Shown piece by piece: positions 45,569 through 63,399 of a stretch of DNA of 64,000 nt. The DNA lies in NCBI GenBank assembly GCA_903923905.1, contig CAIXZH010000092.1:1-64000 (forward strand), written 5' to 3'. This DNA comes from an uncultured Bacteroidia bacterium (GTDB taxonomy: Bacteria > Bacteroidota > Bacteroidia > Bacteroidales > Prolixibacteraceae). The notes beneath the pieces are model-generated. The model searched no databases. It was not told the origin of the DNA and saw nothing but the letters and a program-made list of their open reading frames with translations. The position numbers were made by a program, and so were the translations under genes. The first letter of the stretch is position 1; every line of letters begins with the position of its first letter.

Positions 45569-46443
45569 TAACTACAGTTTTTAGTATTGTCAACCAGTTT
45601 TATAGCTTCAATTGCCTCCTTCACATCATGAACCCTTAAAATATCACAACCTCCCGCCAATGCAAGCGTATTAAGGACAGTTGTTCCATTCAAACTTTGA
45701 TCCGGGGTCAGGTTCAATTCTTTCCATATCATCGCCTTTCGCGACAAACCAACCACTATGGGCAATTCAAAGATGCGAAATGCATCGAGCCTGTTCAATA
45801 ATTCATAATTATGAGTTGCACTCTTCCCGAATCCAAATCCAGGATCTAACAAAATATCGCAAACACCCAATTGTTTTAGTTTTTGTACCTGGGCAGACAA
45901 AAATAAGATCACCTCTTTTACGACATCAGTATAAACAGGATTATTTTGCATGGTATCACTTTTCCCTTTGGTATGCATTAAAACATATGGAAGATTCAAA
46001 CTCGCCACTTTTGCAAACATCTGAAGATCAAAGGTTCCACCAGAAACGTCATTAACTGCAAAGTCACCGATTTCATCATAAACCTGCTGGACAACTTCCG
46101 ACCGGTAAGTATCGATTGAGAGTGAAATATCCGGAAATTCCCTTTTAATAATCGTTACTGCGGGCAGTAAACGACCAATTTCCTCCTCCTGGGAGATCTC
46201 TTCCGCCCCCGGGCGTGTGGACATTCCGCCTATATCGATAAACCGGCCTCCTTCTTCAATGATCTGAGCTGCACGTTTCAAGATTGTGATATCAGTATTG
46301 TAGCGGCCACCATCGTAAAAGGAATCAGGTGTAATATTCAAAATTCCCATAACCACAGGGGAACTTAAATCAATTAAATGCCCGTTCAGATTTAGGGTGC
46401 TTTTTTTCCTGTAAAAACTTTTATCGTTTGGCGTAAACAGCAT
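45568..46443 (-). CDS. folP: Dihydropteroate synthase
   Basis: FolP of 291 residues, which condenses 6-hydroxymethyl-7,8-dihydropterin diphosphate with p-aminobenzoate in folate synthesis. The pterin-site motifs are present: MGILNITPDSFYDGGRY, DIGGMSTRPGAEEIS and DPGFGFGKSATHNYELL. I use the ATG at 46443; the frame is also open to a TTG at 46458, but the shorter form fits the family length. It is the sulfonamide target. The gene is divergent from the DUF1599 gene and overlaps cdaA. Confidence 0.95.
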   Translation of the reverse strand: MLFTPNDKSFYRKKSTLNLNGHLIDLSSPVVMGILNITPDSFYDGGRYNTDITILKRAAQIIEEGGRFIDIGGMSTRPGAEEISQEEEIGRLLPAVTIIKREFPDISLSIDTYRSEVVQQVYDEIGDFAVNDVSGGTFDLQMFAKVASLNLPYVLMHTKGKSDTMQNNPVYTDVVKEVILFLSAQVQKLKQLGVCDILLDPGFGFGKSATHNYELLNRLDAFRIFELPIVVGLSRKAMIWKELNLTPDQSLNGTTVLNTLALAGGCDILRVHDVKEAIEAIKLVDNTKNCS

Positions 46444-55803: not shown

Positions 55804-56511
55804 TTATTTTAACTTAGCCAGTCTTAACTTCCTATAAGTACAGGTTTTTAGTTCACACAGATCACATTCATATGCCGTTTTTCTGACCTCCTCTCCAAAT
55901 CCGATAATTCCACTGACTGATTTAACAGGTTCCATCAGGCACGATTCGGTAAGTTTAATTCCGCAATAATTATCAGAAAATAGGTCAAATAACAGTTTCT
56001 GCTCACTTAAGCCCCATCCGCAATAGCCCGGACTGTATCGGTTAGCGATTTTTTTGCCCTCTTTTAATAATTCATCTTCTAAACTGGTCTGAATCTTATC
56101 AATTGCTGCATCCACGGTTAGGGAACCAATCACGTCAAGGATATACCCTTCCATCAGATCACCAGCCGACATTAATTCTTTACTTTTTTCTCCAATTCCT
56201 GGCCCGGCAGTACAAATAAATAGAATTCCCCCTTCTGCACTTTTTAGTTGTCTGGCAATTTTTTTTCCAACTCCAAATGTAACCGAATCAATTTCAATGT
56301 ATCCTGTGCGATCAAATAAAAAGTGGTCTGAAACACGTAAGCTTCCCCTAATATCGGCTAAACCAACACTTTGAGAAAGGGCAAATGAAATCATATCCGG
56401 AAAGGGTTCAGGCGATTGTCCTTTTTCATAACCCATAGCCTCCTCTATGAGTTCCATATTGAGACCCAACTCATCAAATGAATAAGTGAAATTCCGGATT
56501 CCTGGATTCAT
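55804..56511 (-). CDS. Stand-alone methionine synthase (MetH) activation-domain protein
   Basis: A 235-residue protein that matches the C-terminal, S-adenosylmethionine-binding reactivation domain of cobalamin-dependent methionine synthase (PF02965), here without the rest of MetH. The SAM-site motif is RYSPGYCGW (158-166), followed by GLSEQKLLF. The C-terminus adds Cys216, Cys219 and Cys224 in YECDLCELKTC, which could bind a metal or an iron-sulfur cluster. It may reactivate a corrinoid protein that has lost its methyl group. It is the last gene of the cluster, 29 bases after the homocysteine methyltransferase gene, and so probably works with it. No corrinoid-binding protein gene is in the window. 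Confidence 0.85.
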   Translation of the reverse strand: MNPGIRNFTYSFDELGLNMELIEEAMGYEKGQSPEPFPDMISFALSQSVGLADIRGSLRVSDHFLFDRTGYIEIDSVTFGVGKKIARQLKSAEGGILFICTAGPGIGEKSKELMSAGDLMEGYILDVIGSLTVDAAIDKIQTSLEDELLKEGKKIANRYSPGYCGWGLSEQKLLFDLFSDNYCGIKLTESCLMEPVKSVSGIIGFGEEVRKTAYECDLCELKTCTYRKLRLAKLK

Positions 56512-56540
56512 AAATATTAAAATTTTAGTACAATAATCAT

Positions 56541-57422
56541 CTATAATTCATTGACTACCTTTGAGATTTGACGAATATGTTCAGGTGTTGTTCCACAGCA
56601 TCCGCCAATAATATTTACTCCAGCATCAATAATTGCCATTACAAATCCTGCAGTTTGTTCAGGTGTTTCCGGAAAGTGAGTCACTCCATCCTTAAATACC
56701 GGCATCCCTGCATTGGCATGTACCAGGATCGGTATGGATAAATTACAAGATCGGATCTCATTTACTATCTGTATCATCCCTTCAATTCCATTTCCACAAT
56801 TTGCTCCGATAATATCAACTCCTTCTGGGACCAGTTCGTTAACCATTTCTGTAGGAGAAACACCCATCATCGAACGGAATTCGCCATCAGGACTCTTTTG
56901 GAAAGTCATCGTACAAATCACCTCACGCGTAGTATTTTCTTTTGCAGCCTTCACTGCCAATCGGGCCTCTTCCAGATCAGTCATAGTTTCCACAATTATC
57001 GCGTCCACTCCCCCCCTTTCAAGTGCAATAACCTGTTCCTTAAACGAATCATAGATCTGTTCGGGAGTTACCTCTCCCATCATCAGGATCTTACCCGTTG
57101 GTCCGACAGAACCGAGCACAAAATTGTTTCCTGCAGCCTTTCGCGAAATAGCAGCAGCAGCTTGATTAAACTCTGAAGCACGGGAAGATAGTCCGTAATG
57201 TGCTAATTTAATACTACTTCCTCCAAAGCTATTGGTTTCGACCATATCTGCACCGGCCTCAGTATAACTTTTGGCAATATCAAACACCTCTTCCGTGTGT
57301 TCAATATTCCATAACTCCGGACATTGACCGGGTTTTAATCCTTTTGAATGGAGAAATGTTCCCCAAGCTCCATCAGAGACCAGAATTTTCCCCTGGTTAA
57401 GTCGATCAGTAATTTTTCCCAT
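56541..57422 (-). CDS. Homocysteine S-methyltransferase domain protein
   Basis: A 293-residue TIM-barrel methyltransferase (PF02574), like the N-terminal module of MetH. The zinc ligands are Cys209 (GANCGNG) and Cys275-Cys276 (GGCCGTTP). DGAWGTFLHSKGLKPGQCPE at the start and ADMVETNSFGGSSIKL are typical. It moves a methyl group from a donor, probably a methyl-corrinoid protein, to homocysteine, giving methionine. In place of the MetH folate and cobalamin modules the cluster supplies a UroD-type methyltransferase (38 bases upstream) and an activation domain (downstream). An S-methylmethionine-type donor is the alternative. Confidence 0.9.
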   Translation of the reverse strand: MGKITDRLNQGKILVSDGAWGTFLHSKGLKPGQCPELWNIEHTEEVFDIAKSYTEAGADMVETNSFGGSSIKLAHYGLSSRASEFNQAAAAISRKAAGNNFVLGSVGPTGKILMMGEVTPEQIYDSFKEQVIALERGGVDAIIVETMTDLEEARLAVKAAKENTTREVICTMTFQKSPDGEFRSMMGVSPTEMVNELVPEGVDIIGANCGNGIEGMIQIVNEIRSCNLSIPILVHANAGMPVFKDGVTHFPETPEQTAGFVMAIIDAGVNIIGGCCGTTPEHIRQISKVVNEL

Positions 57423-57460
57423 ATCGAGGTAAATAATAAGTTTTGAATTGGCAATTTTTA

Positions 57461-58459
57461 TTAAATAGCAGCCTTTCTCATAGCCATCAGATTATCAACC
57501 GGAGTGTTTACGATGATTTCACATCCTGCAGACAATATAAATTTCCTGTATTTTTCATTATCGCACAGCATTTTACATACTGAGAATATCTCATCCGGGT
57601 ATTTATTTAAAACAAATCGGGGGTCTAAGTTTCCGCAGCGAATCACATCTGGTCCCATTATTTCAAATGCCTTTTGAGGATCAACCTGCCAATCGATATC
57701 GAGAATGTCAATTCGGAGATCTTTCATAAGTGGCAGAAGGTGGGAAATATCTCCGCAAATATGCACTTTTACCAGAGCACCATTAGCGTGAATAAAATCA
57801 ATGATTTCGCGATGTCGCTCCTTTACAAAGATCTCATAAGTTTGCGGATCTATCTGAGAACAGATCGCATCACCCATTCCTATGATATCACAACCTGCCT
57901 CAATCTGAGCTTTTGCAAAATCTTTAGCCGTCAAAACACATTTGTCAAGGAGGATATTTGCTGAGTCGGCATCCATCATCATCATAACCATAAACTGCTC
58001 AATACCTGATAGATCACAAGATTCGGCCATTGGCCCTTCAATCCAGCCGAAAACCGGTACCTCACCGTTAACGTGCTTTGACAATAATTCAGCTCCCAGA
58101 ATCCTGTCGTGGGTTCGTTCGCATTTATAAACATCAGGCCTTCCAAGATTTCTGACATCATCGGAATTCTTGATTACAAGGTCCATGCACCGGGGAACCC
58201 CATCGGGGATGAATTCAATCCGGGCTCCGAATGCACTTGTCTCCCGGTAAGGGTCTGAGATCAGCCCTACCATGTCAACATCAAAATTCGCAAGTGCACG
58301 AAGATTCGCCTCGACCAGAAACCGGTAATCAGAAGCAAATCCGGCATAATTTCCGCCGGCATATCTGGCGATAAAGTGCATTAATATAGGCACAAACATC
58401 GTTTTACCGGGCAAAATATCTCCATTACACAGATGATGCAAATATTCCTTTTTGGTCAT
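57461..58459 (-). CDS. MtaA-like zinc methyltransferase, UroD superfamily
   Basis: A 332-residue protein of the uroporphyrinogen decarboxylase fold. It lacks the UroD porphyrin-site signature and has the zinc motif of the MtaA/MtbA/CmuA methyltransferases: His233-x-Cys235 in VKVHICGD and Cys313 in SAGCEIIVNTP. That family moves methyl groups between a corrinoid protein and a thiol or other acceptor. The start MTKKEYLHHLCNGD fits a cytoplasmic protein. It lies between a Gfo/Idh gene and the homocysteine methyltransferase gene in the same orientation, which points to methyl transfer in the same route. The corrinoid partner is not encoded here. Confidence 0.82.
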   Translation of the reverse strand: MTKKEYLHHLCNGDILPGKTMFVPILMHFIARYAGGNYAGFASDYRFLVEANLRALANFDVDMVGLISDPYRETSAFGARIEFIPDGVPRCMDLVIKNSDDVRNLGRPDVYKCERTHDRILGAELLSKHVNGEVPVFGWIEGPMAESCDLSGIEQFMVMMMMDADSANILLDKCVLTAKDFAKAQIEAGCDIIGMGDAICSQIDPQTYEIFVKERHREIIDFIHANGALVKVHICGDISHLLPLMKDLRIDILDIDWQVDPQKAFEIMGPDVIRCGNLDPRFVLNKYPDEIFSVCKMLCDNEKYRKFILSAGCEIIVNTPVDNLMAMRKAAI

Positions 58460-58503
58460 GATTCGGGCTAATTGAAAACGTTTGATTTTGGTACTATTGA
58501 TCG

Positions 58504-59799
58504 TTATTCATATTTAAAACCTGGACAAATTCTGGAATAGCTCCACTGATCCCTCATCTCCCTTTTTCTGAATTTGTCAGCATCCGGGTCATTTTCAAAA
58601 TGTTCATCCTTGCAATTCCAGATTACTTTCCGATTGAGTTTCAAAGCGATGTTCCCACAATGGAGCAAACTATTAGTGCGATGTCCTGCTTCGGCAGTTG
58701 CAGAGGGTTTCCGTCCTGACTTTATGGCCTTGAGAAAATCAATTATCTCGTCATTTGCAATGGGTAAAACAACATTCTTCCCGGTTAAATCCAGTATTTT
58801 ATTATTGCTTGTCTCCAATTTATTATTCCATCCTGCAGATTGAATCCATTCTTCTCCCCCTTCAATCCGGATTAAAGCGTCGCCGCTTTTAACCCTCATG
58901 GTCATACTATTGGGGTATTTGTATTGCAGATCGAACTGATAAGCAGTATTGAAGATCCCATCCCGATAATAAAGGGTATCACCAACAGGATTAACCTCAG
59001 CCGGACCTGAAAACTCATTGCCTGAGGCTAGTTGGGCGGTATCACAATAATGGGCGCCCCAGTCTGTCAACAGACCTCCGCTAAAGGCGTCATACCATCT
59101 GAAATGATAGAAAGTCCGCGAATAAATAAATGGTACTTCCTGAGCAGGCCCCAGCCACAAATCATAATTAAGATCCTTGGGCGGTACAGTTATTTCAAGA
59201 TCACTTTTAGGTAATTGACCCACCGGAAGTGAGATCTCAATATGTTTTATGGCTCCGAGCCGACCATTCAGTGCCACTTCTGCCATTTTATGGTAGGCCC
59301 CTAAATACCGGTCTTCAATTGAAACCTGATAAATAACACCGGTTTTTTTTATTACATCGCAGAGCAATCGTCCTTCAGAAATAGTCAGTGTAGGTTTTTC
59401 GCAGCAGATATGCTTTCCCTTTAAGGCCGCCATGACAGAGATTGGCACATGCCAATGATCGGGTGTTGAAATCTGAACTGCATCGATTGATTTGTTATCC
59501 AGAAGCTCCCTGAAATCCTGATAAGCAATGCAATCTCTTGATTTATAGGTATTATTAACCAGATTTTTGGCACTTTGGGCGCGTGTCAGACTGACGTCAC
59601 AAACTGCAATAACCCGGCACAATTCAGGATATTTAAGATAATGTTTCAAATTCCTCTCAATGCCATGCAAGCCTACCCCTATCATGCCTATAGTAATCAA
59701 ATCATTCGGATTCTTCCCTTTGCATCCGAAATTAAGGGGAAGCAACAAAGCTCCGGCTACTGACATTCCACTATTTATAAGAAAGGTACGTCTTTCCAT
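58504..59799 (-). CDS. Gfo/Idh/MocA oxidoreductase (exported, copy 1)
   Basis: A 431-residue protein. The N-terminus MERRTFLINSG has a twin-arginine pattern followed by a hydrophobic stretch (VAGALLLPLNFGC), so it is likely exported folded, perhaps lipidated at Cys26. The Rossmann domain has ITIGMIGVGLHGIERN, and the motif CCEKPTLTIS holds the catalytic-region EKP. The family oxidises or reduces sugars with a tightly bound NAD. I start at 59799; an open stretch to 59919 overlaps the next gene on the same strand and carries no homologous sequence. It is 8 bases after the UroD-type gene upstream. Confidence 0.88.
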   Translation of the reverse strand: MERRTFLINSGMSVAGALLLPLNFGCKGKNPNDLITIGMIGVGLHGIERNLKHYLKYPELCRVIAVCDVSLTRAQSAKNLVNNTYKSRDCIAYQDFRELLDNKSIDAVQISTPDHWHVPISVMAALKGKHICCEKPTLTISEGRLLCDVIKKTGVIYQVSIEDRYLGAYHKMAEVALNGRLGAIKHIEISLPVGQLPKSDLEITVPPKDLNYDLWLGPAQEVPFIYSRTFYHFRWYDAFSGGLLTDWGAHYCDTAQLASGNEFSGPAEVNPVGDTLYYRDGIFNTAYQFDLQYKYPNSMTMRVKSGDALIRIEGGEEWIQSAGWNNKLETSNNKILDLTGKNVVLPIANDEIIDFLKAIKSGRKPSATAEAGHRTNSLLHCGNIALKLNRKVIWNCKDEHFENDPDADKFRKREMRDQWSYSRICPGFKYE

Positions 59800-59806
59800 A
59801 ATCTGA

Positions 59807-61069
59807 TTAAAATCCGTTAAATTCATGAATAGCTTCCAGCATAGCAGCCAGATTTTCAATTGGTACATTGGCCTGGATATTATGTACCGTGTTAAAAACA
59901 AATCCTCCATCCTGAGCAAATATATCGCAATTCTCGAGTACTTGTTTTTTCACCTCCGCAGGGGTTCCGAAAGAGAGCATTTTTTGGGTATCGACTCCCC
60001 CACCCCAGAAAACCAATTCTTTACCATAGGCATTTTTTAAATGACGGGGATCCATCCCTTTTGCATTGATCTGTACAGGGTTAATGATATCGAATCCCGC
60101 TTCAATAAAAAGTGGCATAAATGATTCCACTGCCCCACACGAATGCTTGAAGCTTTTCCATGCAGTATGCTGATGCATCCAGTCATTAATTCGTTTATAA
60201 TAGGGCAGATACATTTCTGAAAACTGATCCGGAGAACAGAAGGTAGATTCCTGTGTTCCAAAATCGGTGCCACAAATAAAAACTGCATCTATCTGATTAC
60301 CTATTCTTTCGTAAATTCTCTTAAAATTTTCAATCGCAAGTTCCGTTTGTTTCTCAAAGACCGAATGGATATAATCAGGCCGTAACACTGTACTCATATA
60401 CCATTCAGCCACATCGCGAATCCCTTTGGGATTTTTCAGTTGCATGCCAGGAACAAGTGCAATATCACCCAAGGCTGTTCCACCAAGACTGGCAATAATG
60501 CCTTTGCCTGAAGTCGTCAGCTGACATATTGTCCGTTCCCAATAATCCAGACTTGCTCTATCAACAGGAGTGAACTCCTCAAGATTATCTTTTGGATTAA
60601 GCTTATCATCATCAATAGGTTGCTGACGGATTATTGCATCAAAGAAATAGCCACTCTTTGGCATTCTTGCACATGGTGAGACTGTTTCATCCCCTTCCGG
60701 AAAGATCAGCAAACTGCTGTCCTCAGCTTTGATAAAATTAAAATCAACAGGAACAAAGAGTTGCTGACCCCAATTGGATGTGAAAGGTTTCCATTCACAT
60801 TCACTGTTTGCAAATCCAAACATGCTATTTTTGCCATAAGCGCCAATCACATCAATACCCAATGCTTCCCGTAAATCTTCTTCAATCTCTCCCAACATCT
60901 GGAAAGGTTCTATTACTTTCACGGGATGATTATCCAGATGGTAATAATTTCTGAGGTTTTTCACTGTCAGACAATGAATACCCGTAACAGCAGTTCCACC
61001 AAAGTCAACAACCAGTCGTTCAGGCTGATGATGATTCAGCGTTTTTTTCAGGTTCTCTCTGCTATTCAT
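59807..61069 (-). CDS. UroD-superfamily protein with incomplete zinc motif
   Basis: A 420-residue cytoplasmic protein of the uroporphyrinogen decarboxylase superfamily. It has the His309-x-Cys311 pair (FKHSCGAVESF) of the MtaA-like zinc enzymes, but at the C-terminal site, where those have GC, it reads GGFVFNTVHNIQANVP with no cysteine. GQ-based active-site signatures of true UroD are absent. Thus it could be a methyltransferase with another metal ligand (the His in TVHNIQ) or an enzyme of unknown reaction. Related proteins are often found beside Gfo/Idh genes in Bacteroidota and Planctomycetota sugar clusters, as I recall. It sits between the two Gfo/Idh genes. Confidence 0.78.
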   Translation of the reverse strand: MNSRENLKKTLNHHQPERLVVDFGGTAVTGIHCLTVKNLRNYYHLDNHPVKVIEPFQMLGEIEEDLREALGIDVIGAYGKNSMFGFANSECEWKPFTSNWGQQLFVPVDFNFIKAEDSSLLIFPEGDETVSPCARMPKSGYFFDAIIRQQPIDDDKLNPKDNLEEFTPVDRASLDYWERTICQLTTSGKGIIASLGGTALGDIALVPGMQLKNPKGIRDVAEWYMSTVLRPDYIHSVFEKQTELAIENFKRIYERIGNQIDAVFICGTDFGTQESTFCSPDQFSEMYLPYYKRINDWMHQHTAWKSFKHSCGAVESFMPLFIEAGFDIINPVQINAKGMDPRHLKNAYGKELVFWGGGVDTQKMLSFGTPAEVKKQVLENCDIFAQDGGFVFNTVHNIQANVPIENLAAMLEAIHEFNGF

Positions 61070-61126
61070 TGATTTAAATAATTTAATCAGATTGGTTAGA
61101 TAAATTCATCAATGACCAATCTGCAA

Positions 61127-62617
61127 TTATACCATTGCAGGCAAATTCCATCCATTGCGATAGGTATGACGGATATATTCATTCGCACGTTCCAGTGCAT
61201 TAAATTTCATCGATTGTTTATTAAAATGGGGATGGCCGTCGATTACCTTAAACTCATTTGAAGTGATAATTTTCAGTTCCTCATTTGGAGAAATATTGGT
61301 TATCTGCATCTTTTCAGCATCCCATTTCAATGATTTATTTAATCCTTGCAGCCTGATAGCCAGCACACCAAGGAGAACCATCTCGTTGAAAGGGCCGGAA
61401 TAGGCAAAATTTGAAGTTCCTTCGGTCCGGTTTTCGGGTGATTCTTTACACGCCCGTATCCAGTCCTGCTCATGCGGGCCGTCAACATATCCGATTGCTC
61501 CAGGAATATGGCGAAGATAAGGTGATACTATTGGAATCCGGCCGGAAACCAGTCGGGCATTAAAACCGCCGCAACCGCAAATCAAAGTGTCTTTGGAACC
61601 AACAAAAATACAGCCGCCCAGACCGTCAGCCATCAGGTTTTCACCTTCTGGCAAAAGTTCCGATATGTTCGGGTAAAGGCCGCCGTCATACCAGTAAACT
61701 TTAACCGCAGGCATGGCAACTTTTGGCAGATTCTCGCGGGCAGGGAAGCAGAATTCAACTGTTTCAGCCATAGGAGGCGATTCCGTATTAATAGCAGTTG
61801 AACTTCCTCTGACTTTATCGGGATATCCCAACTTAAGCGATTGGTAAACAGGGTCTAAAACATGGCAGGCCATATCACCAAAAGCACCGGTCCCGAAGTC
61901 CCACCAACCCCTCCAATTCCAGGGTGTATAAATTTCATGATAGGGTCGCATCGATGCAGGACCAATAAACAGATCCCAATCCAAAGTCTTAGGTGTTTTC
62001 ATCAGTTGAGCCGGACGCTGAAGTCCCTGTGGCCAGATGGGCCGGTCAGTCCATGCATGAACCTCTTTAATCTCACCGATTTCTCCGTTCCATATCCACT
62101 CGCTGATCTGTCTGACCCCGTCACCGGAATTTCCCTGATTCCCCATTTGTGTGGCTACCTTATGTTTTGCCGCCAACCGGGTCAATAATCGCGATTCATA
62201 AACCGAATGGGTCAGTGGTTTCTGGCAATATACATGTTTTCCAAGCGAAAGAGCTGTTGCTGCAATTATGGCATGTGAATGGTCGGCGGTAGCAACCATC
62301 ACCCCATCGATTGAACTTCCCATTTCATCGAACATTTTGCGCCAATCAGTGTATCGTTTTGCTGCAGGAAACTCCTTAAAACATGTTTCGGCATATTTCA
62401 AATCAACATCACATAATCCAATGATATTTTCCTTCGACATTCCCACGAGGTTAGGATGTCCTTTCCCTCCGATACCCACACCGACGATGTTCATTTTATC
62501 GCTGGGTGCGTAATGCCCCAATCCACTTACTGAAAAGGAAGGGACAATTGAGATTCCGACAGTCGCAACTGCACTGTTTTTCAGGAAATTTCTTCTTGAA
62601 TAAAGGTTATTTTCCAT
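61127..62617 (-). CDS. Gfo/Idh/MocA oxidoreductase (Tat-exported, copy 2)
   Basis: A 496-residue protein with a clear twin-arginine signal, SRRNFLKNSAVATVGISIVP. The nucleotide-binding motif is NIVGVGIGGKGHPN, and VYCQKPLTHSVYESRLLTRL replaces the usual EKP with QKP, a variant seen in many exported Bacteroidota members. The C-terminal substrate domain has WNWRGWWDFGTGAFGDMACH. It probably oxidises a sugar at C3 in the periplasm with bound NAD, since exported members cannot use free cofactor. It is 11 bases from the DUF1080 gene, which would act on a 3-keto product, so they are likely partners. Confidence 0.9.
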   Translation of the reverse strand: MENNLYSRRNFLKNSAVATVGISIVPSFSVSGLGHYAPSDKMNIVGVGIGGKGHPNLVGMSKENIIGLCDVDLKYAETCFKEFPAAKRYTDWRKMFDEMGSSIDGVMVATADHSHAIIAATALSLGKHVYCQKPLTHSVYESRLLTRLAAKHKVATQMGNQGNSGDGVRQISEWIWNGEIGEIKEVHAWTDRPIWPQGLQRPAQLMKTPKTLDWDLFIGPASMRPYHEIYTPWNWRGWWDFGTGAFGDMACHVLDPVYQSLKLGYPDKVRGSSTAINTESPPMAETVEFCFPARENLPKVAMPAVKVYWYDGGLYPNISELLPEGENLMADGLGGCIFVGSKDTLICGCGGFNARLVSGRIPIVSPYLRHIPGAIGYVDGPHEQDWIRACKESPENRTEGTSNFAYSGPFNEMVLLGVLAIRLQGLNKSLKWDAEKMQITNISPNEELKIITSNEFKVIDGHPHFNKQSMKFNALERANEYIRHTYRNGWNLPAMV

Positions 62618-62628
62618 TTAAAAAATTA

Positions 62629-63399
62629 TTATAATTCACTGAATTCCTTTAGTTTAATATTGCGGAACCAAACCTGTGTTCCATGGTTTTGAAGTGAAAT
62701 ATGCCCTTTGTCGAACTTTCCATAATCCGGAAAGTTTGCCCATTTGCCACTCGCCCGTAGTTTTTTCCACTCATCGGTATATTTTTCATATTGGACGACG
62801 ATCACCCCATTAATGATTTGAGTTACATGGTTTCCATCAACAACGAGCAGAAGGTGATTCCATTCGCCTGTTGGATTACTTGGCAGTGATTTAGGCGGAT
62901 ACATCGCATAATTGGCACCGCAGATCTGCCAGTCCTGCAGAGGATCGGGCCATCCAGCCTGATCAATTATCTGAAATTCCGGTCCGGTCTCGTATGGAAA
63001 TTTGTATTTTGGATCTTCATGAATTTGGAAAATGATACCACTGTTGGTTCCTTTCATCATTTTGAAATCAAGACTCAGGGCAAAATTACTATATTCCTTA
63101 TCCGTGACCAGATCCAGATCTTCATGACCACCCTTTGTGGTAGTTGTGAATACCTCGTTTTCAATCACCCAACTGTCAGGAAACACCTTCAAATTGAAAC
63201 CATGCCAGCCTCTGGTATTTTTGCCGTCAAATAAAAGCACCCATCCATTATCTTTCTCCTGGGTAGCCAGTGTATTCGTTGTGGGTGAACGATCAATCTG
63301 ACCGTATAAGATGATTGGGTCCTTATTAGTCGAGGGAGTACAGGCAATCAAAAAAGTGATCATCAGGCAAATTGCCAACACGGTAAATTGATTTTTCAT
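62629..63399 (-). CDS. DUF1080 (3-keto-glycoside hydrolase-like) lipoprotein
   Basis: A 256-residue lipoprotein with lipobox FLIAC (Cys20). The rest is a concanavalin-like beta sandwich of PF06439, seen in GWVLLFDGKNTRGWHGF, NFALSLDFKMMKGTNSGIIF, and WFRNIKLKEF at the end. Members have been shown to cleave 3-keto-disaccharides or 3-keto-glucosides by elimination and hydration. It is the promoter-proximal gene of the cluster, followed by an exported Gfo/Idh that could make the 3-keto substrate. Confidence 0.87.
   Translation of the reverse strand: MKNQFTVLAICLMITFLIACTPSTNKDPIILYGQIDRSPTTNTLATQEKDNGWVLLFDGKNTRGWHGFNLKVFPDSWVIENEVFTTTTKGGHEDLDLVTDKEYSNFALSLDFKMMKGTNSGIIFQIHEDPKYKFPYETGPEFQIIDQAGWPDPLQDWQICGANYAMYPPKSLPSNPTGEWNHLLLVVDGNHVTQIINGVIVVQYEKYTDEWKKLRASGKWANFPDYGKFDKGHISLQNHGTQVWFRNIKLKEFSEL

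Follow-up and report, generated by a model that had tools for sequence, protein, structure and literature searches.

In this work we describe a cluster of seven genes from an uncultured Bacteroidia bacterium (Bacteroidales, Prolixibacteraceae), located at positions 55804-63399 of the window, i.e. the whole stretch of 64,000 nucleotides that was analysed (the first 64,000 positions of contig CAIXZH010000092.1, here C92, of assembly GCA_903923905.1, a draft genome of 5.41 Mb and 97.8% completeness). We propose, with a probability of roughly one half, that part of this cluster belongs to a folate-free split methionine synthase, which would be fed by a methylated corrinoid protein, MtaC, carrying methyl groups mainly from methanol, and which lies beside genes for glycoside breakdown. 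The proposal was drawn from sequence: from the protein families and their key residues, the single corrinoid carrier found in the genome, the linkage of MtaC to the methanol:corrinoid methyltransferase MtaB, and operons that recur in relatives. A further-reaching version, in which glycan-degrading Bacteroidota would pass methanol, or a methyl group released from methylated glycosides by 3-keto chemistry in the periplasm, without folate through MtaB and MtaC straight to homocysteine, so that a methanol-dependent methionine synthase is wired to glycoside breakdown, is tentative and rather doubtful.

All seven open reading frames are intact and lie on the minus strand. In the order of transcription, P7-P6-P5-P4-P3-P2-P1, they are separated by 11, 57, 7, 44, 38 and 29 bases when P4 is started at the ATG at 59799. 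The initial annotation had described seven genes on one strand with gaps of 8 to 57 bases; this description stands, except that the gaps run from 7 to 57. The Pfam score of each of the seven proteins exceeds the cut-off of its family, two of them being Gfo/Idh proteins and two URO-D proteins. From these assignments the cluster divides into two predicted modules, A (P7-P6-P5-P4) and B (P3-P2-P1).

Within module B, P3 (57461..58459, 332 amino acids) is predicted to be an MtaA-like methyltransferase of the UroD fold (PF01208, 190 bits). In an alignment with MtaA of Methanosarcina (4ay7) a His and two Cys coincide, and these residues (H233-C235-C313) were invariant in 9 out of 9 aligned sequences; its score against the NCBIfam MtaA equivalog is 100, below the cut-off of 400. 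P2 (56541..57422) is a putative MetH-type homocysteine S-methyltransferase barrel (PF02574, 241 bits), with C209, C275-C276 and the motifs GANC and GGCCG. Its best solved relative is 1q7m, the 5-methyltetrahydrofolate homocysteine methyltransferase MetH, at 171 bits, as against 79 bits for BHMT and 38 bits for the homocysteine S-methyltransferase 5dml, and on these scores we rejected a betaine- or S-methylmethionine-dependent enzyme. The MetE family was absent from its Pfam and NCBIfam matches. P1 (55804..56511) appears to be a stand-alone MetH reactivation domain (PF02965, 35.5 bits, cut-off 25) with the motif RYSPGY, and matches 1j6r at 32.6 bits.

The cluster itself encodes no B12-binding protein, and the initial annotation had supposed that the corrinoid protein must lie elsewhere. 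A profile search of the whole genome with PF02310 bore this out. It pointed to four places, the first being a stand-alone protein of 222 amino acids on another contig, C47, which contains the two B12 domains as well as a DLHDIG motif. This MtaC is the only free-standing corrinoid carrier found in the draft genome. The second place is a frame of 1236 amino acids, which is read as MetH because it also holds PF00809; the third, a frame of 726 amino acids, was taken, unchecked, as a putative mutase, and the fourth is a sub-threshold match to a protein that on visual inspection resembles a MerR regulator.

The gene for MtaC opens a putative methanol:corrinoid methyltransferase operon, MtaC-MtaB-CobW-RACo (L017:7207-9427, on C47), in which MtaB, a CobW GTPase and RACo are followed by an exported Gfo/Idh protein, 31% identical to P4. 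A divergent AraC regulator and a facing GH78 rhamnosidase gene accompany it. MtaB scores 528 bits with PF12176, and its alignment to 2i2x retains E164, C220 and C269, which we take to be the zinc ligands; RACo scores 201 bits with PF14574. A separate PF00809 pterin-binding subunit was not found in the genome, PF00809 occurring only in MetH and in a frame of 299 amino acids (window positions 45628-46350) which we take to be FolP. A supply of methyl groups from methyl-tetrahydrofolate to P2 through such a subunit was therefore rejected. Acetyl-CoA and, provisionally, coenzyme M were likewise rejected as end points, since ComA and the acetyl-CoA synthase CdhC were not found in the genome (other routes to coenzyme M were not searched for).

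Relatives of P3 were sought in one genome per species over 84,980 species; 199 were found and the best 80 were analysed, neighbourhoods being counted at 78 of these loci (L140 and L150 were dropped by a score threshold). In the closest clade (76-80% identity) the operon reads MtaC-P3-UroDTrx-P2-CobW-P1 in L077 and L079, and MtaC-P3-P2-P1 in L080, while in the more distant L089, L093 and L096 the genes for P3, MtaC, UroDTrx, P2, CobW and P1 stand together. A corrinoid protein of the MtaC family thus lies inside the module B operon of six relatives. The initial annotation had read the last three genes as a set for corrinoid-dependent methyl transfer with methionine as its end product, which these operons and the closeness of P2 to MetH structures uphold; it had also suggested looking for a B12-binding protein nearby, and this is met with in the relatives, not in the cluster of the window. 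P2 matches occur at 13 loci; 10 of the 11 genomes searched among these encode a stand-alone corrinoid protein, and in the L082 genome, as in that of the window, none of MtaC size was found besides that of the MtaB operon. In Marinilabilia rubra, a named species among the relatives, the genes for P3, MtaC, UroDTrx, CobW, P1 and RACo lie close together, and MtaB was not found in its genome.

UroDTrx denotes a UroD-fold methyltransferase with a thioredoxin-like domain, the domain having been seen in the L058 copy (L058:5624-6988; the L077 and L079 copies are at L077:1730-3370 and L079:11025-12644). The L058 protein keeps both Cys and has a Phe in place of the MtaA His, and its relatives travel with MtaC, CobW and P1.

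Genes of the P1 kind occur with MtaB as well as with P3 and P2, as the operons of the L077 type and two of the 30 MtaB loci indicate (L203, MtaC-MtaB-UroDTrx-CobW-P1-RACo; L208, MtaC-MtaB-RACo-P1). By hand count, MtaC lies at most two genes from MtaB at 22 of these 30 loci, and the MtaB operon with its Gfo/Idh gene and facing GH78 gene is preserved in L193-L195. MtaB and P3 also tend to share genomes. Of 247 genomes from the order, a P3 orthologue is encoded in 9, a full-length MtaB in 10 and both in 5 (Fisher 4e-6, or 5.5e-5 when the genome under study is left out). Counted by family, the values are 0.002 and 0.018, respectively, on the assumption of 118 families, the highest label seen among the matches. 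For P3, 22 of the 247 genomes match at 1e-20, of which the 9 with at least 43% identity were counted and 13 at 23-27% excluded; for MtaB, 11 genomes match, and G006, with a frame of 103 amino acids and three stops, was excluded. In a second sample, the first 50 genomes with P3 relatives out of the best 80, MtaB was found in 23, as against the 10 of 247; some genomes belong to both sets.

In the scheme that we propose, MtaB would charge MtaC, its operon mate, mainly with the methyl group of methanol. P2 would bind homocysteine on zinc and take the methyl group from a methylated MtaC-type corrinoid protein to yield methionine, and P1, together with RACo and CobW of C47, would re-reduce oxidised cobalt. 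P3 may be a second zinc methyltransferase acting on the same carrier, its partner being homocysteine, another thiol or a donor. Methionine as the output of module B is well supported. Methanol is likely to be the direct methyl donor, more so than the glycoside itself, from which the initial annotation had derived the methyl group, because the sole carrier found sits in a methanol methyltransferase operon; methanol as the substrate, homocysteine as the acceptor and this direction of flow are what we infer. Module A would oxidise glycosides at C3 in the periplasm and then cleave them, and methanol freed outside the cell from methyl glycosides or methylated glycans would be caught inside and turned into methionine. 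As methanol crosses membranes freely, it could link the exported module A to the cytoplasmic module B. The release of methyl groups or methanol by the 3-keto enzymes of module A is a conjecture, and P5 may have another role, the direct demethylation of a sugar.

As for module A, P7 (62629..63399, minus strand) is a putative 3-keto-disaccharide hydrolase (PF06439/DUF1080, 164 bits, cut-off 26.8), whose leader, ending in LIAC, was read by eye as of the lipoprotein type. P6 (61127..62617, 496 amino acids), a putatively exported protein with a twin-arginine (RR) leader, is named by NCBIfam as a glycoside 3-dehydrogenase of the BT_2158 type (NF058561, 851 bits, cut-off 750), so that both members of a 3-keto-glycoside cleavage pair, a PF06439 hydrolase and a BT_2158-family dehydrogenase, are present. 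The disaccharide 3-dehydrogenase of the BT_2159 type was matched neither by P4 (21.7 bits) nor by P6 (28.4 bits), the NCBIfam cut-off being 650. P4 (58504..59799) is predicted to be a second exported Gfo/Idh dehydrogenase (PF01408, PF19051). It was listed with 471 amino acids from a TTG start inside the upstream gene; the in-frame ATG at 59799 gives 431 amino acids with an RRTFL leader, and a start at this position is also seen in three close relatives (429-430 amino acids). Its nearest solved structures are 8tdf, 8tdh and DgpA.

P5 (59807..61069, 420 amino acids) is a UroD-fold protein (PF01208, 70 bits), in which H309, C311 and H396 are invariant in 12 of 12 aligned sequences. A zinc site formed by these three residues is possible; H396 need not be a ligand, because in a weak alignment (E 0.057) it falls on a His of HemE. 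The AlphaFold model of P5 (pLDDT 85.6) has HemE structures and MtaA 4ay7 as its nearest solved folds, and the structure search did not separate decarboxylase from methyltransferase folds. A paralogue of P5, 61% identical, is located among glycan genes, as is the P5 copy of L226. P5-like genes were observed inside glycan-degradation clusters with heparinase-like, DUF2961 and PF06439 genes (L023:5962-7254 and L226:8118-9383), with no corrinoid gene adjoining within the stretches read.

The join of glycoside genes to MetH-type genes is out of the ordinary and partly conserved. Synteny extends over both flanks of the slot in L078, L081, L082 and L083, and over the single flank visible in L077. The slot holds P5-P4-P3-P2-P1 in L082, the same set with an AP_endonuc_2 gene between P4 and P3 in L081 (P5-P4-AP_endonuc_2-P3-P2-P1), P5-P3-P2-P1 in L083 and P4-P3-P2 in L078, L077 having the corrinoid version on a contig that begins at MtaC, inside the operon. 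P5 lies within six genes of P3 at 7 of the 12 loci with P2, as against 3 of the 66 without (p 3e-5, 78 loci). L077-L083 form a close clade of common ancestry, and when one of these seven was kept the counts were 4 of 6 against 3 of 66 (p 5e-4). An exported Gfo/Idh gene is found in the P3 operon of L078, L080, L081, L082 and the window, and P5 or P4 stands together with P3 and P2 in L078, L080, L081, L082, L083, L086, L093 and L096; the join also holds a GH120-like gene in L080 and a melibiase-like gene in L093.

The adjacent operon mates of P3 were compared with as many control proteins. The 71 mates came from 54 of the 78 loci, after exclusion of genes shorter than 120 amino acids, corrinoid genes, P4-P7, the arylsulfotransferase and other reference matches. 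Among the 25 of 83 families listed for them were GH31 (4), GH127 (3), GH29 (2), GH92 (1), an apiosidase (1) and sugar transporters (4). Among the 25 of 176 families listed for the 71 controls, which are shorter proteins (mean 323 amino acids, as against 409), no glycoside hydrolase family had two or more members, and single matches may be hidden. Creatininase (7 members) and peptidase family S58 (4) rank among the most frequent families next to P3. The P3 orthologue of L136, L137, L139 and L141 is followed by a gene for 253 amino acids, a family that recurs at that place, and in L095, L104, L128 and L135 P3 orthologues adjoin an arylsulfotransferase (ASST) gene. The AP_endonuc_2 protein of L081 matches no solved structure below E 0.037, and its designation as a 3-keto-glycoside eliminase is therefore not warranted.

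Several findings weigh against our proposal. The MtaB of C47 scores 417 against an NCBIfam equivalog cut-off of 720, and MtaC 107 and 106 against 450 and 420, so that methanol as the substrate is not assured; the C47 operon and that of the window are on separate contigs. P2 scores higher with the NCBIfam families Hcy-MT/MTHFR (259) and betaine-homocysteine (240, cut-off 338) than with metH (189), all of these below cut-off, which counters our rejection of a betaine-type enzyme. A full-length MetH is also encoded, so that the cell should be able to make methionine without module B, which would be an additional route. Furthermore, MtaB was not found in 27 of the 50 genomes with a P3 relative, many of the 27 being drafts, and P3 thus probably has other partners too. 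P1, P2, MtaC or UroDTrx lie within six genes of P3 at just 18 of the 78 loci, many of which are clipped by contig ends. In the L078 genome, which has P3 and P2, neither MtaB nor a stand-alone corrinoid protein was found; P1 is absent from this locus, and the assembly, of 3.6 Mb, is possibly incomplete.

P6 and P7 are absent from the slot in all four relatives with both flanks visible (L078, L081-L083), L077 being uninformative because its contig starts within the operon. Orthologues of P6 (78-88%) occupy other places in relatives, as P7-P6 in L225 and L227, and L226 has module A without module B, in the order hydrolase-P6-P5-hydrolase-P4-AP_endonuc_2. For these reasons P7-P6-P5-P4 looks like a unit of its own, parts of which join module B in this lineage. 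AP_endonuc_2 is equally common beside P3 and in the controls (2 of 71 each), and the neighbourhood of Gfo/Idh and DUF1080 genes is in itself ordinary, as both families are abundant in this genome (46 Gfo/Idh matches and 16 PF06439 stretches, besides 12 URO-D matches). The idea of one pathway put forward by the initial annotation, which was to be judged by the conservation of the gene order in relatives, therefore holds in part: the join recurs, through P5, the exported Gfo/Idh gene and their association with P3-P2(-P1), and the hydrolase-dehydrogenase pair is not kept with it in the four informative relatives.

Three other explanations were weighed. In the first, which is close to the idea of the initial annotation, P5, or P3 itself, might move a methyl group from an O-methylated sugar or aglycone directly to MtaC in the cell, from which P2 would make methionine, methanol being a side donor. 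The UroD fold of P5, its H309-C311 pair and a His close to where the third Cys would stand agree with the O-type UroD methyltransferases, in which one or both Cys ligands are replaced (PMC10418091); P5 is near P3 more often where P2 is present (7/12 against 3/66), and both its paralogue and its L226 copy have glycan genes around them. We regard this as unlikely: the His in question aligns, weakly, with a His of HemE, decarboxylases are as near to P5 as MtaA among solved folds, and the L226 copy has no adjoining corrinoid genes, nor was a stand-alone corrinoid protein found in the L226 genome. A salvage of methyl-sulfur compounds, in which P3 would demethylate a thioether or methylthiol onto MtaC for P2 to make methionine, with the glycoside genes as mere neighbours, seems distinctly unlikely. 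Glycoside hydrolases, sugar transporters and esterases are among the 25 listed families of operon mates, none of which is a family of sulfur metabolism (the arylsulfotransferase having been excluded beforehand), and MtaB co-occurs with P3 above background; in its favour, P3 retains the His-Cys-Cys site that is tied to S or Se substrates (PMC10418091), an arylsulfotransferase gene adjoins P3 in four loci and MtaB was not found in 27 of 50 genomes.

It is also conceivable, and in our view very unlikely, that there is no common pathway, and that a 3-keto unit resembling a polysaccharide utilization locus and a methionine unit came to be adjacent by chance under one promoter. The abundance of Gfo/Idh and PF06439 genes in the genome, the absence of P6-P7 from the slot in four relatives and the separate occurrence of the modules (module A alone in L226, the corrinoid version in L077) speak for it. 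The presence of P5 or P4 with P3 and P2 in eight loci speaks against it, as does the C47 MtaB operon, which also ends in an exported Gfo/Idh gene and is kept in three relatives.

Control by a B12 or S-adenosylmethionine (SAM) riboswitch was rejected, as Rfam at its gathering threshold detected neither in the window, L017, L079 or L081; the sole match was a fluoride riboswitch (L017:15295-15359) that lies ahead of a gene judged by eye to be enolase. A scan for TAnnTTTG, presumably the Bacteroidota promoter motif, gave two matches ahead of P7; the short internal stretches of the cluster had none, and these numbers are too small to be meaningful.

In anoxic water, methanol derived from plant and algal polymers is a substrate of methylotrophic methanogens. 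If our proposal of a methanol-fed methionine synthase is true, glycan-degrading Bacteroidota that retain methanol for methionine would divert part of it before methane is formed. Annotation would miss such bacteria, because MtaB lies at one locus and the acceptor genes resemble uroporphyrinogen decarboxylase and parts of methionine synthase. The MesA-D families, whose core synthase is presumably related to MetE, would then be joined by a MetH-type methionine synthase that works without folate.

Several known systems can be set beside the one proposed here. Folate-independent core methionine synthases (MesA-D) have been published (PMC7857596), from which P2 differs in being a PF02574 protein with no MetE family match. 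In Bacteroides thetaiotaomicron, BT2157 is a 3-ketotrehalose hydrolase (PMC9007349), and BT_2158 and BT_2159 are named as dehydrogenases by NCBIfam. As there, a PF06439 hydrolase adjoins a glycoside 3-dehydrogenase of the BT_2158 family; here, by contrast, the second dehydrogenase is of another type than BT_2159, and the cluster has an inserted UroD-fold gene and methyl-transfer genes downstream. MtaA-like clusters outside methanogens are known as type 1 mlp gene clusters (PMC10418091), which share with our system UroD-fold MtaA relatives with His-Cys-Cys, a corrinoid protein, an activator of the Ram/RACE type and non-methanogenic hosts. They hold several Mlps together and were placed in methyl-selenium or methyl-sulfur metabolism, whereas here MtaB, P2 and P1 would take part, glycoside genes are joined, and the corrinoid and Ram/RACE proteins lie on C47, outside 55804-63399. 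The methanogen MtaABC system (2i2x, 4ay7) likewise has an MtaB with the three conserved ligand positions, a corrinoid protein of MtaC size and an MtaA-like enzyme; in our genome, in contrast, a search for ComA gave nothing, homocysteine is the probable end acceptor, the MtaA-like gene stands apart from those of MtaB and MtaC, and the NCBIfam scores are below cut-off.

Split MetH enzymes have been published for Phaeobacter inhibens (PMC5764234) and, as MtgBCD, shared with glycine betaine demethylation, for Ruegeria pomeroyi (PMC12478193). In these systems the homocysteine barrel (PF02574) and the corrinoid protein (PF02607/PF02310) are encoded by separate genes, as here, a RACo-like DUF4445 protein is tied to reactivation, a function that RACo of C47 and P1 would fill here, and the non-folate donor, glycine betaine, uses the same corrinoid protein as methionine synthesis. 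Our system differs from them in that a separate pterin-binding subunit was not found and MtaB would be the donor enzyme, as well as in its stand-alone PF02965 domain, its Bacteroidota host and the glycoside genes in its operon. In the titles and abstract openings of the papers listed for MtaB with methionine, homocysteine or Bacteroidota, an MtaB joined to a MetH-type barrel without a folate subunit in glycan-degrading Bacteroidota is not described. Since the pterin subunit was looked for and not found, this is not a split MetH of the folate type, and the system would best be regarded as a variant of the split methionine synthase that stands outside that type.

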